Assembly (NCBI GenBank): GCA_015492515.1
Contig: WGEZ01000060.1
Span: 1 to 43,886, forward strand
Source of the DNA: Nitrospirota bacterium
GTDB lineage: Bacteria; Nitrospirota; Thermodesulfovibrionia; Thermodesulfovibrionales; JdFR-85
Length of the DNA stretch: 43,886 nt
Direction: 5' to 3'
Shown here piece by piece: positions 35,562 to 42,282 of this stretch (position 1 is its first letter; every line of letters starts with the position of its first letter). The notes beneath the pieces were generated by a model, which searched no databases, was not told where the DNA came from, and saw nothing but the letters and a program-made list of their open reading frames with translations. A program made the position numbers and the translations under genes.

Positions 35562-36968
35562 TCACTCGACACAGCAGGCCATGTCGTCAAGATTCTGCTC
35601 GAAACTCTGGGCAACCTTCTTGATGACCTCGCTTAATGTGGGGAAAACATGCACCGTCTCCCTGATATCATAAATGGTCATTTTGTTCTTTATTGCATAG
35701 GTGGCCGTAGTGATTATATCAGCCGCCATGGGCCCCACCATATGAACGCCCATCACCTGCTTCGTCTCCGGTTCGACAACCATATTGATTAATCCCCTTG
35801 TATCCTTTATTGCGGCGGCCTTCTCCACGTGCTCAAGCGATATCGTCCTGCAGAGACAGACGTTGTGTTTCTCCATGTACTCCGCCTCTGTCATCCCCAC
35901 CGAGGCGACCTCGGGCGAAGTGAAAACGGCCCTCGGTACCTCGAGGTAATCGATCGTTCTGCCGGCGTCTTCGAACATGTTCAGCACCGCGATGTTACCC
36001 TGCTTTGCAGCCACCGTCTCAAGGGGCATCAGACCGGTCACGTCCCCTGCCGCGTAGATATGCCTCTGCGAGGTCTGCAGGTATTCGTTCACCCTGACGA
36101 AGCCCTTCTCGTCGACTTCGACACCTGACTTCTCGATATCGAGCCCCTCCGTGTTCGCCTTAAGACCGGTGGCTATGAGGAGGCCCTCGGCGCTTATCCT
36201 CTGCCTCCCCTTGTCTTTTACGTCGACCACGAGCTCCACCCCTCCCCTCGATCTCTTCGCCTCCCTGACGGATGTCCCCGTAAGGATGGTGATCCCTTCC
36301 TCTTCAAGATATTTTTGCAGTTCCCTTGCGATCATCTCGTCAAATTTCGTAAGGATCCTGTCGGACCGCTGCAGCACGGTGACCTTTATGCCGAAGTGAT
36401 GGAAGATCTGCGAGAACTCCATTGCTTCGGGCCCGCCGCCGAAGATGATCATCGATTCAGGCCTCTTCTCCAAACCGAATACCGTCCTGTTTGTCAGATA
36501 CTCGACGTCTTCGATCCCTTTCACAGGTGGAATGAATGTAGACGCCCCTGTTGCAATGAGGATGTTCTCGGACTCAAACTCTTCGTCTCCGACCGTCACG
36601 GTGTGGGGATCTCTGAAGGCTGCGTGTCCTTCCCTGAAATCCACGTATTGCTGTTTTTCGATAACATTGAGATAGTTCTTCCTCTGAAAACCCCTTACCA
36701 TCTCCCTCGTCTCTCTCAACGCCTCCACGAAGTCCGCCTCTCCCTGCACGGAGATCGCCCTGAACCTGCTCCTTGTGGGATAGTAATACTCTGCTCCCTG
36801 ACGGAGCATGATCTTCGATGGAACGCATCCGACATTTACACACGTGCCTCCGAGGGGGAGGATGTTTCTGTCATTAATTAGCAAGGTCCTTTTCTTGAGT
36901 TGATTCGCCCTGTTGGCTGCCGCAAAGGCGGCGGCACCGCCTCCGATAATGATCAGGTCATATCTCAT
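35562..36968 (-). CDS. merA: Mercuric reductase MerA (no N-terminal HMA domain)
   Basis: This 468-residue flavoprotein disulfide reductase reduces Hg(II) to volatile Hg(0) with NAD(P)H. It has the FAD-binding DLIIIGGGAAAFAAANRA, the redox pair GGTCVNVGCVPSK (Cys43, Cys48), and NAD fold IFGGGPEAMEF. The vicinal C-terminal pair Cys465-Cys466 (MACCVE) delivers Hg from the partner subunit and separates MerA from dihydrolipoamide dehydrogenase. The start at 36968 follows AAAGGAGGT; an in-frame ATG at 36995 has no such site. The N-terminal metal-binding domain is absent, as in short MerA forms. It is the last gene of the mer-type operon. Confidence 0.93.
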   Translation of the reverse strand: MRYDLIIIGGGAAAFAAANRANQLKKRTLLINDRNILPLGGTCVNVGCVPSKIMLRQGAEYYYPTRSRFRAISVQGEADFVEALRETREMVRGFQRKNYLNVIEKQQYVDFREGHAAFRDPHTVTVGDEEFESENILIATGASTFIPPVKGIEDVEYLTNRTVFGLEKRPESMIIFGGGPEAMEFSQIFHHFGIKVTVLQRSDRILTKFDEMIARELQKYLEEEGITILTGTSVREAKRSRGGVELVVDVKDKGRQRISAEGLLIATGLKANTEGLDIEKSGVEVDEKGFVRVNEYLQTSQRHIYAAGDVTGLMPLETVAAKQGNIAVLNMFEDAGRTIDYLEVPRAVFTSPEVASVGMTEAEYMEKHNVCLCRTISLEHVEKAAAIKDTRGLINMVVEPETKQVMGVHMVGPMAADIITTATYAIKNKMTIYDIRETVHVFPTLSEVIKKVAQSFEQNLDDMACCVE

Positions 36969-37025: not shown

Positions 37026-37229
37026 CTACTCACAGCATGGGCCAGAGTTTATGCTATATCCGTGCCTGACAAAGGCCCTCTTGAGGCTCTTCTTCTCCTC
37101 GGGAGTCAGGGATGTATACAGAGAGACGACCTTCTCCTTTGAGCGTTTCTCTGTGCATCAATGCTGCGATTCATTGCAACACGACCGGTCCGTTTCTCTA
37201 AGGCTCCATAATGCTTGCCATGTATCCAA
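37026..37229 (-). other. Short ORF with in-frame TGA and SECIS-like hairpin (candidate small selenoprotein or remnant)
   Basis: In the 229-bp gap between merP and merA, one minus-strand frame is open from a TTG at 37229 to TAG at 37028-37026, apart from one TGA at 37160-37158. Upstream of TGA it reads SCCNESQH; downstream, CTEKRSKEKVVSLYTSLTPE and then GYSINSGPCCE. After the TGA a hairpin GGAGA/TCTCT (37137-37133, 37126-37122) exposes the loop AGGTCG, with GGT starting 27 nt after the TGA, the same offset as in the candidate selenocytochrome gene of this operon. There is no ATG start, and the 5' part overlaps merP by 32 bp. It may be a small Cys-rich selenoprotein or a decayed gene. Confidence 0.35.
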
Positions 37230-37518
37230 GGTCCTCTATAGTCTTTATCATCTGTTCCACGGTTACCTTACCATCCTGATACATGACGGTCGCCTTTTCT
37301 TCCTTGTAACTCACCTCTGCCTTGACTACACCTGGAAGCCTCTTTAATGCTGCCTTGATCGTGGCCGGGCAGGAGACACAGGTCATCCCATCAACCTTCA
37401 GTGTGACCTGCTTTAAGTTATCTTCGGCACTCAATACACTGCCTGCTGAAACCAACAGTAACCCCATCAGGACAACCATTGAGATAACCATCCTTTGAAA
37501 GTGGATATACTTTTTCAT
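37198..37518 (-). CDS. merP: Periplasmic mercury-binding protein MerP-like (HMA domain)
   Basis: This 106-residue protein has a signal peptide (VISMVVLMGLLLVSAGSVLS) and a heavy-metal-associated domain with GMTCVSC, the Hg-binding pair. MerP shuttles Hg(II) to MerT. Two starts are possible. ATG 37518 follows AAAGGAGGT at about 10 nt and places the signal peptide correctly. ATG 37614 has a stronger GGAGGAGG but adds a 32-residue non-signal leader. I prefer 37518. Confidence 0.9.
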   Translation of the reverse strand: MKKYIHFQRMVISMVVLMGLLLVSAGSVLSAEDNLKQVTLKVDGMTCVSCPATIKAALKRLPGVVKAEVSYKEEKATVMYQDGKVTVEQMIKTIEDLGYMASIMEP

Positions 37519-37636
37519 TGATACCAGACCTCCTTTTGTAAAATTTAGCCCTTTTGGTCTTAATGTTGAGCCTCTCAGGATAAGGCTATGTGGACGCCAA
37601 TAACTGGATAACATGTACCTCCTCCACTACTGCCTC

Positions 37637-38059
37637 CTATGCCAGTTGTGCGATGAGATAGGGGAGTACCAGAAGAACAGCCACAACAACCGTGGCGATC
37701 CAGAGGACAGCCTTCTGGAGCCTCTTTGTTTTGGGTGCAGCACAGATACCACCCGGTTCACATTCCTTTGGTTTTTTGTAGACACTGTAAAAACCTGCAA
37801 CAAGAAAACCGATAGTAAAGAGGATGAAGATCGGCTTGTAGGGCTCAAGCGCCCGCAGGCTTCCGATCCATGCACCGCTTACCCCGAGCATCACAAGGAC
37901 AAAGGGACCCACGCAGCAGGCAGATGCCAGCAGTGCGGTAACAATTGCCAGAGGGCCAAACGAGAAAAATCTCTTTTGTTTCATACTCTCACCGGTGGCA
38001 TTTACTTCTGCTGGAGCACAGCAGGGCTGATCTGCTGTGGCAGGAATCTTATCTTTCAT
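37637..38059 (-). CDS. merT: Mercuric ion transport protein MerT
   Basis: This 140-residue membrane protein has about three TM helices and the TM1 Cys pair ASACCVGPFVLVMLGVSGAW that takes Hg(II) from MerP. A second Cys pair lies in the cytoplasmic loop (CEPGGIC). The N-terminal extension carries another CC (DQPCCAP). GGGAGGTGTAAAG precedes the ATG at 38059. It is preceded by the CopZ-like gene (15 bp) and followed by merP. Confidence 0.9.
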   Translation of the reverse strand: MKDKIPATADQPCCAPAEVNATGESMKQKRFFSFGPLAIVTALLASACCVGPFVLVMLGVSGAWIGSLRALEPYKPIFILFTIGFLVAGFYSVYKKPKECEPGGICAAPKTKRLQKAVLWIATVVVAVLLVLPYLIAQLA

Positions 38060-38074
38060 CTTTACACCTCCCTC

Positions 38075-38590
38075 TCATTTTACCTTACAGCAGTCTTTAT
38101 TTCCCTTGTCCACAATTTGATCCTCCTTTATACCCAGCTCAAGGAGCACTTCATTCACAAAATGATTCACAGTGCTGAGGCAGCATGAACCCTGAGGGTT
38201 TCTGGTCTCACATGAGCATCCCTCTTCTTTCATACGAGATTTGATGTCCTCAATAACTGTGGTTTTACCGGTCCTTTTAATCTCGTCGTATATCTCCTCC
38301 AGTGAATGATTAAAACAATAGCAGAGTGGCCGGGGAGGAGAGTCCTCCTTGATCCCCACCCTGACTGTAAGATCCTCTTTGTAAAAAGGCTGGATGCCAT
38401 CTTCGGAGAAGTAAACCACGTTGCAGTCTCCGGTGTTACAGAAAAAGTACTGGTTGACCGTAATACGTCCCTGTCTTTCCTTTTTGATGAGAGAGCGTAA
38501 GGTGGTCATCTTCACGGCACTGCCCTTACTGCCGCAGGATGGGCATCGGGCAGTCTGCTTACCTGCTGTTTCTGTCTTGATCGTATCCAT
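38075..38590 (-). CDS. CopZ-like iron-sulfur/zinc metallochaperone
   Basis: This 171-residue protein resembles the N-terminal part of Archaeoglobus CopZ: a zinc-type pair (CPSCGSKG...CNTGDC) and a BFD-like [2Fe-2S] site (CYCF near 95, then CSCETRNPQGSCC). It lacks a C-terminal HMA domain. The start at 38590 is set by AAAGGAGAAAGG; in-frame ATGs at 38611 and 38608 lie upstream. The preceding cytochrome gene stops at 38608, within this context. It probably receives Hg or Cu in the cytoplasm and is common in mer operons lacking MerR. Confidence 0.82.
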   Translation of the reverse strand: MDTIKTETAGKQTARCPSCGSKGSAVKMTTLRSLIKKERQGRITVNQYFFCNTGDCNVVYFSEDGIQPFYKEDLTVRVGIKEDSPPRPLCYCFNHSLEEIYDEIKRTGKTTVIEDIKSRMKEEGCSCETRNPQGSCCLSTVNHFVNEVLLELGIKEDQIVDKGNKDCCKVK

Positions 38591-38607
38591 AAACCTTTCT
38601 CCTTTCA

Positions 38608-41286
38608 TCATTTCTTCAAAGAGACCCTCCTCTGAGCTGTTGCCATCACCACCGGCGGGTTGGTGGACTCAAGGGTATTCATCGCTGCCATCCGGGCCGG
38701 TATCTCCTCGTTCAGTATCTTCTCCTTGATCTCGGCTGGAGAGGACTCTATGCGCCTGATGATGGCCTTCTGCATACGGTTCTTGGCTTCAGACGGCGGG
38801 GTTACGAACCAGACGTAAATCAACGATGCCTTCACCGTGAGGGTCTCTATCGCGCCTTCCATATCCGGTTTTCCTTCGAATCGTTCAACGAACTTCTTCT
38901 GAGGAGGGATCATGAAGTCCACCCTGCCTGCCATATCACTCACCATGGAAGGTCTGAAGCCGTCATTGCCCACGATGTCCCATCCGTACTCCTTCTGTAC
39001 AGAGAAGACCTCCCATCCGTCCTTGTCTTCCGCCCAGACCTTGAGCAGTACTCGTGAGCGGGGCGGTCAACCATCTGGTATGCTGTGTCCTGTCCGGTTT
39101 TCCAGTTCCAGTTCCACCTGTAATATCCCCTTTTGCACCTCTGCCCTCAGAAACCGCATCTTCACCGCCCTCCTGAGCATATCCGGGTCTCTGCTTCCGG
39201 GCATGAGGTGGCTGACACGACCGCGGTCGTCCAGGTACCGCTGAAGACCCGTCAGGGAGAAGAGCCAGTTGAGAAATCTTGATTTCTCTTTCATCACCCC
39301 CATGGTGTCGCGCATATGACAGGACTGGCAGGTTACCCCTTCCCTTGCATACTCTGTCTTTGCAAGGCCTCGGTAAACAGTGCAGCACGGGGTTGTGGGC
39401 TCTTCAGGATGTGGTATGTTGATACCGTTGTAGTCATGGCAGGAAGAGCAGAGCTCGGATGAACGTGTCAGATCAGTACGAAATAGGCTGTGATAGGGCG
39501 GTACAGAGTTGACCTCATAGGTTGCAGGTGCTGTCCAGTCGTAGTCCTTTGCATCCACATACCTGACCATGTGACAGGAGGTGCATGTCACCCCCTCGCT
39601 GGGCAGGTACTCGCCATTGAGCACCCTCCTGGAGAGCTCCTCTGCACGTGCCTTGCCGAGGAACTTTGTTGCTGGGTCGTGACAGTTAAAGCAGTACTCC
39701 GGCATTTTGCCCTCTGTAGAATAGTTAAAGATTGTATACATGGCCCTGAATGTGGGTGTATGGATAGATCGGGAATGGTATGACTTCTTCCATTGTCTGT
39801 ACTCACGGGGGTGGCATCCCTTGCAGTTTTCAGCTGAAGGGAAGGGGTCTGCAGAGACACCGGGCACAGGCTCTCTCACTGTGCTCCCCCTCGTAGGGGA
39901 GTCAGGCGGGGTCTGAAGACGGACCTTCTGTGCAGGCCCTGGTGTGCCGCTGTCAGGTGAGCAGCCGACAAGGATTGGTAGTCCCAGAAGCACTGCAATG
40001 GTCATGGTCTTGACAGCGGTGCCGAGGCTGCCCTTACGGCCCTGCAGCACCTGTGCTCCTTTGCTGAGCACCACACCATAACCGATCAGAATGCCATACA
40101 CCGTCATCGCCAAAATCCGTCCCATCCATTCATGTATAATATCTGTATACCGGACTGCCCATAAACCTACTGACTCCATGAGATAGAAGGACTTCCATTG
40201 GGCAATACCTGTCCCGATCATGACAAGGATACCACAAAGCAGGTACCAGTAGGTAAGTTTCACCTTCACAGAAGAGACGGGTCTTCCCGGGGTCAGTCCC
40301 CGTTTTATCTCATCAAGTAGGCTGCGGAGCCAGTCCTCGGGCAGGCGCATCTTCTGCCTGAGAGAAGGACTGAAGGCGAGACAGATTAGATGCACTGCTG
40401 CGGTTACTACAAGTCCCAGTGCTGACAGCCGGTGAACGAGGCTTCTGATGTCGTCTGAGCCAAGCAAGGATATCACGAACCTGCTCACCCTGTGCATCAG
40501 AATCTCCATCACCCCGCCTGATGGAGGAGAGTAAAGCAGGCTGACCCCGGTAAGATCAAGGGGGATAAAGAAGATGATGAAAAAGAGCAACTGTACCCAC
40601 AGCCAGCGGGGCCACTTCGGTTTCTCCGGCAGGGGTTCTCCCCTCAGGTTACGGATCCACTGCAGTATAAAGAGCAGTCCAAGTGCAAAGAGACCGAGCG
40701 TCAGCACTCCCATTATCCCTTTGACCACTAACGTGGATAGGGTATCCTTACGGTAGAGTGTGCGGCCGGTAGCAGGGGTGCTCAGTATCGCTGCCATCCT
40801 GGCCTTATCACCGGTGGTCCCCGCATGGCAGCCGGCACATATGAGGCCTGTATTGGCGGGATTGATCGGTGACAGTGCCTCTGTGCGGGGCAGCTCGTGG
40901 CCGGCATGGCAGAAGATACAGGTGGGGACATTCTTCTTTCCCAGTGATAGGTGTTTGCCATGATAGGTGGAGTTGAATATCCTCACCTGTGCATCATGAC
41001 ACCTGCCACAGGTCCTTACATCTTTACCGCGGGTAAGGGGAGAATTTGATGCTTCGGGGTTGGTCTTTCCATGGGGGGCATGGCAGGACAGACATGTGAG
41101 CCTCTCAGCACCCGTCTGTTCAGGGGCATGCACACTCGCATTTACCTCAGACTCCGAAGAGGCATGACACCTTGCGCAATCCTGCCCACTGTAAAATCCC
41201 ACCTTGCCGGCATCCACTGCTACAGAAGATAACATGACCAGCAATGGAACCAGTACAAAAGGTGGCCATGCTCTATTTACAACCAT
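38608..41286 (-). CDS. Ten-heme membrane cytochrome with in-frame TGA (candidate selenoprotein)
   Basis: Read through the TGA at 39069-39067, this gene gives one 892-residue protein with Sec (or another residue) at position 740. It has a signal-like N terminus (FVLVPLLVMLSSVAVDAG) and five CxxCH motifs (CARCH, CLSCH, CGRCH, CIFCH, CAGCH). A central membrane region of about five TM helices follows, with b-type-heme-like His (MHRVSRFV, VHRLSALGLVVTAAVHL). Then come five more CxxCH motifs (CKGCH, CFNCH, CTSCH, CSSCH, CQSCH). After TGHSIPDG-TGA the reading frame continues as PPRSRVLLKVWAEDKDGWEV, with normal coding character for 122 codons to the stop at 38608. An in-frame stop without Sec would cut the C-terminal domain. 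It could move electrons between the quinone pool and the periplasm. The family resembles cytochrome c554/NapC-like multihemes. Confidence 0.75.
39030..39069 (-). promoter_or_regulatory. Candidate bacterial SECIS element at the in-frame TGA
   Basis: On the mRNA, TGA (39069-39067) is followed after 18 nt by the stem CTGCTC (39048-39043) / GGGCGG (39035-39030) with loop AAGGTCT (39042-39036). The stem has two G-U pairs, and GGTCT matches the E. coli fdhF SECIS loop core. Stop-to-loop distance (24 nt) is in the usual range for bacterial SECIS. An alternative pairing CCGCCC (39066-39061) / GGGCGG competes, so folding should be modelled. Confidence 0.6.
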
Positions 41287-41293
41287 AAACGCT

Positions 41294-41809
41294 TCACTCA
41301 GTAGCAGCCCTTACAAAGGCCTCAACCATTGGGTCCATCCTCTTCCTCGCCATCTTTGTGAGCTTTTCGTTGCCATAGTGTGCAAACAGATAAGACGGAC
41401 GGTAGTAGATGACAACGATACCGCCGTCATTGAGTTCACGTACTGTAATTCGCATGGGCATTTCAAGGGCGGCAAGGGGTTCCACGGTGAGGAACTTCGC
41501 GGCCACCTGTGGCTTTGCAAACCCGATGGTTATGCTCTTTCTGCTTTCGATCCCCACTATCTTCATCATATTCTGATGATTCGCCTCGAAGACAATATTG
41601 AGCCCTTTGCCTTTAATCGCATCCTTGAGCTTCTTGACGGTGACTTCAAAGGAATTTGAAGACTTAACGACAACAGGCTGGCCCTTCGATAGAGCCATTG
41701 CAGGCGAACTCACGAGCACAAACAAGAATGCGATCAAACAGGTCAGAACATGGATACGTGTCCTCAGCTGACTGGTAAGGTGCTTTCTTATCCTTTCAGG
41801 TTTGTTCAT
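41294..41809 (-). CDS. DUF302-domain exported protein
   Basis: This 171-residue protein has an N-terminal hydrophobic segment (VLTCLIAFLFVLVSSPAMA) and a DUF302 domain (SFEVTVKKLKDAIKGKGLNI, SITIGFAKPQVAAKFL, PMRITVRELNDGGIVVIYYRP). DUF302 proteins are often linked to metal or sulfur redox genes, but their function is unknown. The start at 41809 is set by GGAGGTTGTT before the ATG; ATG 41824 is the in-frame alternative. The cytochrome gene begins 7 bp after its stop. The sensor gene lies 95 bp upstream. Confidence 0.82.
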   Translation of the reverse strand: MNKPERIRKHLTSQLRTRIHVLTCLIAFLFVLVSSPAMALSKGQPVVVKSSNSFEVTVKKLKDAIKGKGLNIVFEANHQNMMKIVGIESRKSITIGFAKPQVAAKFLTVEPLAALEMPMRITVRELNDGGIVVIYYRPSYLFAHYGNEKLTKMARKRMDPMVEAFVRAATE

Positions 41810-41904
41810 AACAACCTCCTCCAAGTTTATGAATGTAAAATTTTTAAGCAGCAGACATGCTTCCTCCGCCTTATGAATACCAATTATGGGATACTATATT
41901 ACGC

Positions 41905-42282
41905 TCACCCCCTTTCCGCTCCCGAGGCCTGTCCCACTTCAGTATCCGTCCTTTCGTGGTCCCTGACCACCTCACACGAAAGCACACCCTCCAGTATCCC
42001 CCTCACATGTTCATCGGCAAGGTCTGTTATTTTCAGTACCTTTTCGCTTTTTATAGAATAGTGGACATTCTTGCCGTTCTTCTCAGAACTCACCAGGCCA
42101 CAGTTCTTAAGACAGCTCAGGTGGTGAGAGATGAGGTTCTGTTCCCTGCCTAACCGCTCACATATCTCAGAAACAGTTAAAGGAGATTCTTCTCTCAGAT
42201 GCTCCAGTATCTCCAGCCTCACCCTCTCACCCAGTGCCCTGAATAGATGTGCCCTTGCTGTTAACATATCGCCGTATATCAT
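41905..42282 (-). CDS. ArsR/SmtB-family metal sensor, CmtR-like
   Basis: This 125-residue winged-helix repressor has the ArsR core (FRALGERVRLEILEHLRE, HHLSCLKNCGLVSSEKNGK). Three cysteines at 57, 61 and 103 match the Cd/Pb-binding residues Cys57, Cys61 and Cys102 of Mycobacterium CmtR (CxxxC in the recognition helix plus one C-terminal Cys). The usual alpha-3 ELCVCDL site is absent (EICERLG). It heads the mer-type operon in place of MerR, so it should derepress on Hg, Pb or Cd (inference). AAAGGAGGCAGG precedes the ATG. A perfect operator and promoter lie just upstream. Confidence 0.88.
   Translation of the reverse strand: MIYGDMLTARAHLFRALGERVRLEILEHLREESPLTVSEICERLGREQNLISHHLSCLKNCGLVSSEKNGKNVHYSIKSEKVLKITDLADEHVRGILEGVLSCEVVRDHERTDTEVGQASGAERG

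Follow-up and report, generated by a model that had tools for sequence, protein, structure and literature searches.

The window, i.e., the whole 43,886-nucleotide stretch of DNA analyzed here, carries on its minus strand (positions 38608 to 41286) a gene for an 892-residue multiheme b/c cytochrome that almost certainly contains selenocysteine (Sec) and is encoded among mercury resistance (mer) genes; codon 740 is a TGA, as is the terminal stop. The evidence, all of it computational, comes from the Sec site, the Sec machinery of the genome, the domain architecture, the gene order, and the reappearance of the cassette at another locus of the mer type. The reading that we favor, and consider fairly likely, is that this selenoprotein is a membrane cytochrome passing quinol electrons to a periplasmic Sec-Cys site and serving mercury detoxification beside MerA.

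The cytochrome ORF extends from position 41286 to 39067 and encodes 739 amino acyl residues before it is closed by the TGA at 39069-39067, past which the same frame stays open until a TGA at 38610-38608. An earlier note on this DNA had described a frame that continues through the first TGA to a stop at 38608, which is correct, and had counted 122 further sense codons, where there are 152 (residues 741-892). Its ten-CxxCH membrane cytochrome on the minus strand is found as described, with motifs at residues 37, 65, 93, 123, 150, 488, 532, 568, 613, and 653. The closest relative of the protein is encoded at another mer-linked locus in a distant lineage, referred to as L079. The two cytochromes are identical at 48% of 258 columns ahead of the TGA and at 40% of 149 columns behind it, and on both sides the differences fall more often on the third codon position than on the first and second. 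Because identity and third-position bias persist there, the tail after the TGA looks like conserved coding sequence, homologous to L079, which agrees with the earlier view of this part as the natural continuation of the C-terminal domain. The same persistence argues against a pseudogene or an assembly error in which a Cys codon (TGT/TGC) became TGA and left a truncated 739-residue protein. Such an event would be in line with the TGT of L079, which is one base away, and with the draft state of the genome (148 contigs), but a random lesion would need to have struck the one codon among 892 that is TGA in Sec homologs, the gene and its neighbors show no other lesion, and the genome possesses the full Sec machinery; we therefore regard this explanation as extremely improbable. 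At its end, the cytochrome gene has a tandem in-frame TGA-TGA (38610-38605) that overlaps the start region of the following CopZ-like gene.

The in-frame TGA (39067-39069, minus strand) lies within the motif GHSIPDG-U-PP, which in the family reads GHxIPDG[U/C]. In an alignment of 82 pentaheme sequences, window included, the column of this TGA contains Sec/TGA in 36 sequences (the window counted) and Cys in 13, and nearly all of these 49 have the setting GHxxPDG[U/C]. The other 33 aligned sequences constitute different subfamilies, and their residue in this column is M, T, H, D, S, or yet another. L079 has a TGT (Cys) at this position ('GHRIPNGCPPRTRIVLKV') and thus provides the Cys-containing homolog that the earlier note had called decisive. 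The family profile matches the PDB chains 9wt8_A and 9wt9_A (MccSep; U325A mutant) with an E value of about 1e-130, and the column of Sec740 is that of U325 in MccSep, the 'multiheme cytochrome c selenoprotein' (PDB 9wt8), a relative of the window protein deposited in the PDB as a selenoprotein. The in-frame UGA therefore occupies a position that is UGA or Cys in homologs and is flanked by homologous sequence before and after it, as is required of a bacterial selenoprotein. A search for selA, selB, selC, and selD detected all components in the genome, i.e., selA (606 bits), selB (315 bits, beginning at a contig end), selD (345 bits), and tRNA-SeC with the anticodon tca. Judging from column, machinery, and homologs, it is near certain that the UGA at codon 740 is decoded as Sec by the organism's own SelABCD system, as had been proposed for residue 740. 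The case against chance is made by the exact coincidence of the TGA with the Sec/Cys column of the family and not by the hairpin that follows it. The genome probably encodes at least one other selenoprotein since selD (L083, G000:C131:33185-34096) has an in-frame TGA of its own in the N-terminal region (AAG-U-AGKLG). In the assembly containing L079, no tRNA-Sec was detected above the family cut-off.

A candidate SECIS upper hairpin, CUGCUC-AAGGUCU-GGGCGG, with GG in its loop, occurs 18 nt 3' of the TGA (39030-39048, minus strand), and its loop sequence GGUCU recalls the SECIS of E. coli fdhF. Presence, distance, and loop (AAGGUCU) had been reported correctly, but the hairpin is weaker evidence than had been claimed. 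Its energy is ordinary when compared with dinucleotide shuffles (z about -0.5). When the region was recoded synonymously 150 times, a hairpin with GG in the loop and an energy of -7.9 kcal/mol or better arose in 29 cases, and the actual hairpin reaches -7.4 on this scale. Its stability being no better than chance, the hairpin was rejected as main proof of Sec. In most TGA members of the ExtKL type, the family to which MccSep belongs, a hairpin lies 15 nt 3' of the UGA, typically with the sequence GUGGUC-NUGGANGU-GACCGC. Over 26 sequences, 95.5% of cells pair in this structure, as opposed to 19-65% in slid structures, and two pairs are changed on both sides; folding z averages -2.0 among TGA members and 0.06 among Cys members. 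This covarying hairpin of ExtKL mRNAs is not shared by the window, whose own hairpin may be a working SECIS, although sequence alone is insufficient to establish this. With so weak a hairpin, Sec insertion might be inefficient, and all ten heme motifs are situated upstream of the TGA, which would suit a UGA acting as a real, perhaps regulated stop, the 739-residue form being functional and the tail made at times by selenium- or mercury-dependent read-through. Termination at this point would, however, leave two of the seven strands of an Ig-like domain, and Cys relatives make the full domain uninterrupted, so that a genuine stop seems very unlikely and Sec insertion at codon 740 is the reading retained here.

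The predicted product is a single 892-residue chain composed of five hemes, a b561-type membrane part, and an ExtKL-like pentaheme plus Ig-like domain. Residues 1-185 comprise the signal and five hemes, the N-terminal periplasmic c-type domain with its five CxxCH motifs (residues 37-154; 40825-41178, minus strand) being 46% identical to the cytochrome c of L079. The membrane region takes up about residues 186-440 (delimited as residues 190-442 for 39961-40719, minus strand); in it, a first transmembrane segment is followed by a b561/FdnI-like part and a lipobox-like last hydrophobic segment. With 29.0 bits, the b-type domain scores just below the Pfam cut-off of 30.1, and its counterpart in L079 is of the b561/formate-dehydrogenase-gamma type (Pfam b561, 60 bits; TIGR01583, E 3.5e-15). 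Among the candidate His ligands of b hemes, H285 and H385 are retained, whereas R227 and I401 replace His residues of L079. Going by FdnI, we take the positions of R227 and I401 to be one complete ligand pair, and one of the two b hemes has thus probably been lost. As judged from sequence, the loss of this His pair together with the sub-cut-off score of the b-type domain leaves quinol oxidation uncertain. The last hydrophobic segment (residues 424-442) resembles a lipoprotein signal (LVGC) and is likely the scar of a fusion with a formerly secreted ExtKL-like protein. The C-terminal pentaheme domain (residues 488-657; 39316-39825, minus strand) precedes an Ig-like beta-sandwich domain (residues 690-892; 38611-39219, minus strand), which AlphaFold predicts with a mean pLDDT of 73. 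Sec740 is placed in the loop that joins strands 2 and 3 of this predicted domain, and five of its seven strands are encoded after the TGA. A structure of the whole C-terminal half, predicted from two sequences, was of low confidence (mean pLDDT 43), only the Ig-like domain being usable. The top match in Foldseek is the penta-heme cytochrome c552 5ze8, in agreement with the ExtKL/PHC grouping (PMC11976967).

A second residue of possible relevance is Cys634 (39385-39387, minus strand), which is located outside every heme motif. In the alignment of 82 pentaheme cytochromes, it is Cys in all 49 Sec/Cys members, whereas in the 33 others the column is never Cys but I, L, T, S, Q, V, or G; four of these 33 have a Cys one column away, where an alignment error is possible. 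Shared ancestry accounts for part of this conservation pattern. By alignment, the counterpart of Cys634 in MccSep is C239. The invariance of Cys634 in the 49 members and its absence from the column elsewhere suggest that Cys634 and Sec740, presumably close to one another, jointly make up a site for redox chemistry or soft metals in the vicinity of a heme.

The gene order in the window is ArsR (42282) - DUF302 - cytochrome - CopZ-like - MerT - MerP-like - MerA (35562), all on the minus strand. The operon starts with an ArsR/SmtB-family metalloregulator (41905-42282), which is followed by a DUF302 protein upstream of the cytochrome (41294-41824; 34% identity to its L079 counterpart). Downstream of the cytochrome are genes for a CopZ-N-terminal-like metallochaperone (38075-38611; NF047645), the mercuric ion transporter MerT (37637-38059; 108.4 bits, above the Pfam cut-off), a MerP-like HMA protein (37198-37614), and the mercury(II) reductase MerA (35562-36959; TIGR02053, 510.7 bits versus a cut-off of 454.45). 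A MerA above its equivalog cut-off and a MerT above its Pfam cut-off thus occur side by side, identifying a mer operon with which the cytochrome is presumably co-transcribed. A MerR-type regulator is absent from the operon in the window, and ArsR/SmtB stands first, as it does in two related operons. MerT exceeds the cut-off in only 16 of 149 relatives. A related operon (L147) encodes ArsR (86% identical), CopZ-like (60%), MerT (66%), and MerP (56%) proteins in the same order but has nothing between ArsR and CopZ-like, i.e., the DUF302-cytochrome pair is absent, and the L150 operon consists of ArsR-MerT-MerP. From these two operons it seems probable that DUF302 and cytochrome genes were inserted into an existing mer operon, or else were lost elsewhere. 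Another mer-linked cytochrome module, of different make-up, occurs in a genome of the same family (L152, G004:C39, 1567-8362), where, with genes named by eye, a mer operon of MerR-like regulator, MerT, MerP, and MerA is directly followed by two 5-CxxCH cytochromes, between which a Rieske-like protein and then a cytochrome b-like protein are encoded. In a further related genome (L148, 7897-9087; G029), a four-CxxCH protein is encoded downstream of a CopZ-like/MerT/MerP cluster.

L079 is the sole other full-length relative found, and there the cytochrome modules exist as three genes. Its genes form a row made up of a truncated MerT-like end, DUF302, and cytochromes, so that the cassette recurs at a second mer-type locus. 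The MerT-like end is a weak, truncated match (E 1.3e-4) with 28% identity to the MerT of the window (pairwise E 3e-8). Searches of some 420 genomes from the order and the phylum revealed no other full-length fusion, and 395 genomes of the phylum to which L079 belongs gave none besides L079. A GTDB pattern scan, the reach of which is close relatives, returned L079 alone, and tblastn against plasmids gave partial matches alone (22-28% identity). The best additional match (G458; 109 bits) has a TGA, and mer genes are not adjacent to it. In this genome, which is from the phylum of L079, the divergent Sec cytochrome (L102/L111, 3646-4872; HRVPDS-U-PW) scores 179 bits to NF040886 and has no mer genes next to it. 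In the phylogenetic tree, the window and L079 proteins pair with a support of 100/100, and the branch of this pair, which may or may not nest inside the ExtKL clade, is weakly placed. The AU test does not reject one common clade of the Sec/Cys members (p-AU 0.41).

The link to mercury is drawn from the genes for MerA, MerT, and MerP-like proteins that adjoin the cytochrome and from L079, where MerT-like, DUF302, and cytochrome modules are kept together; it is this neighborhood in two loci from which we infer mercury as a substrate. According to the reading that we favor, the cytochrome would sit in the cytoplasmic membrane, its b561-like domain would take electrons from quinol, and respiratory electrons would then pass from the quinone pool to a periplasmic Sec740-Cys634 site. 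This site might reduce mercury, selenium, or thiol species in the periplasm, or the electrons might keep the pair reduced, so that Hg(II) could be bound. Either activity would complement the cytoplasmic reduction of Hg(II) by MerA. A bolder version, in which quinol electrons reach, through ten hemes, a Sec740-Cys634 pair where Hg(II) (or Hg-Se/Hg-thiol species) would be bound and reduced outside the cytoplasm, as a second, membrane-driven detoxification route encoded by a cassette moving between mer operons of different phyla, appears unlikely to us. A less likely alternative to the favored reading is an ordinary quinol-linked periplasmic or extracellular conduit (CbcL plus ExtKL-like) that is a selenoprotein and simply resides in the mer operon or is induced with it, the acceptor being selenite, tellurite, Fe(III), or another compound. 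ExtKL has been implicated in the reduction of selenite and tellurite, not of mercury (PMC5877670), CbcL, in which c and b domains are fused, acts as a quinone oxidoreductase (PMC9129911), and most homologs are not known to be near mer genes, their loci being too short to tell. However, in a distant lineage, too, the same DUF302 and cytochrome modules lie next to a MerT-like gene, the genes in the window are tightly packed between ArsR and CopZ-like/MerT, and a separate ExtKL is absent from the genome.

Mercury toxicity is usually explained by binding to selenocysteine. If the mercury link holds, the cytochrome would be a testable case of selenocysteine being used against mercury. The window (Sec) and L079 (Cys) represent a natural Sec/Cys pair in a similar genomic setting, and Cys634 is a candidate second residue taking part in the chemistry of ExtKL proteins in general. 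With the window protein, the known range of the Sec-cytochrome family (ExtKL/MccSep) comes to include mercury operons as well as a single chain that reaches from the membrane part to the Sec.

The earlier note knew of no described selenoprotein that joins multiheme c, b-type membrane, and mercury genes. This is valid for that combination, and a full-text search of open-access papers retrieved none joining selenoprotein, mercury resistance, and multiheme cytochrome; yet the multiheme Sec cytochrome of this family is known as ExtKL/MccSep (NF040886; PMC5877670; PMC13188914). The fused single-chain form and the mer-operon setting appear to be new, the Sec cytochrome family itself being already known. 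ExtKL was proposed as a Sec cytochrome of Geobacter and tentatively connected with the reduction of selenite (PMC5877670), and a 2026 review lists ExtKL along with Sec-containing mercuric transport and metal-binding proteins (PMC13188914); for MccSep, the literature search yielded no relevant paper. NF040886 ('multiheme c-type cytochrome (seleno)protein ExtKL') aligns to residues 691-831 at an E value of 1.7e-31, and the whole protein scores 109.3 bits, under the cut-off of 250 bits, compared with 101.1 for L079 and 448 and 485 for two typical relatives. With ExtKL/MccSep (GSU2937-2936; PDB 9wt8-9wtc), the window protein shares the pentaheme plus Ig-like domain, the motif GHxIPDG[U/C]P, the Sec column, and the extra Cys. 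It differs in being 24-33% identical to family members versus 44% to L079, in having a five-heme domain at the N terminus and a b-type membrane part fused to it, in the mer genes and DUF302 that surround it in place of an ext gene cluster, and in the hairpin after the UGA, which is unlike theirs. CbcL, an inner-membrane quinone oxidoreductase of Geobacter, unites in one chain a multiheme c domain on the periplasmic side and a b-type domain in the membrane (PMC9129911), and the layout of the window protein resembles a CbcL joined to an ExtKL. However, CbcL binds nine c-type and two b-type hemes, whereas the window protein has ten c motifs in two domains, likely lacks one b-heme His pair, and possesses in addition the ExtKL-like Sec domain. 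Finally, there are Sec-containing mercury-type proteins, i.e., the MerT/CopZ fusion NF045683, the UxxU metal-binding protein NF041115, and CopZ_Nterm_CU NF045877, and the neighbors encoded at 37198-38611 (MerP-like, MerT, and CopZ-like) match these families or their Cys relatives. In the window, these neighbors carry Cys, and it is the cytochrome in which the Sec is located.
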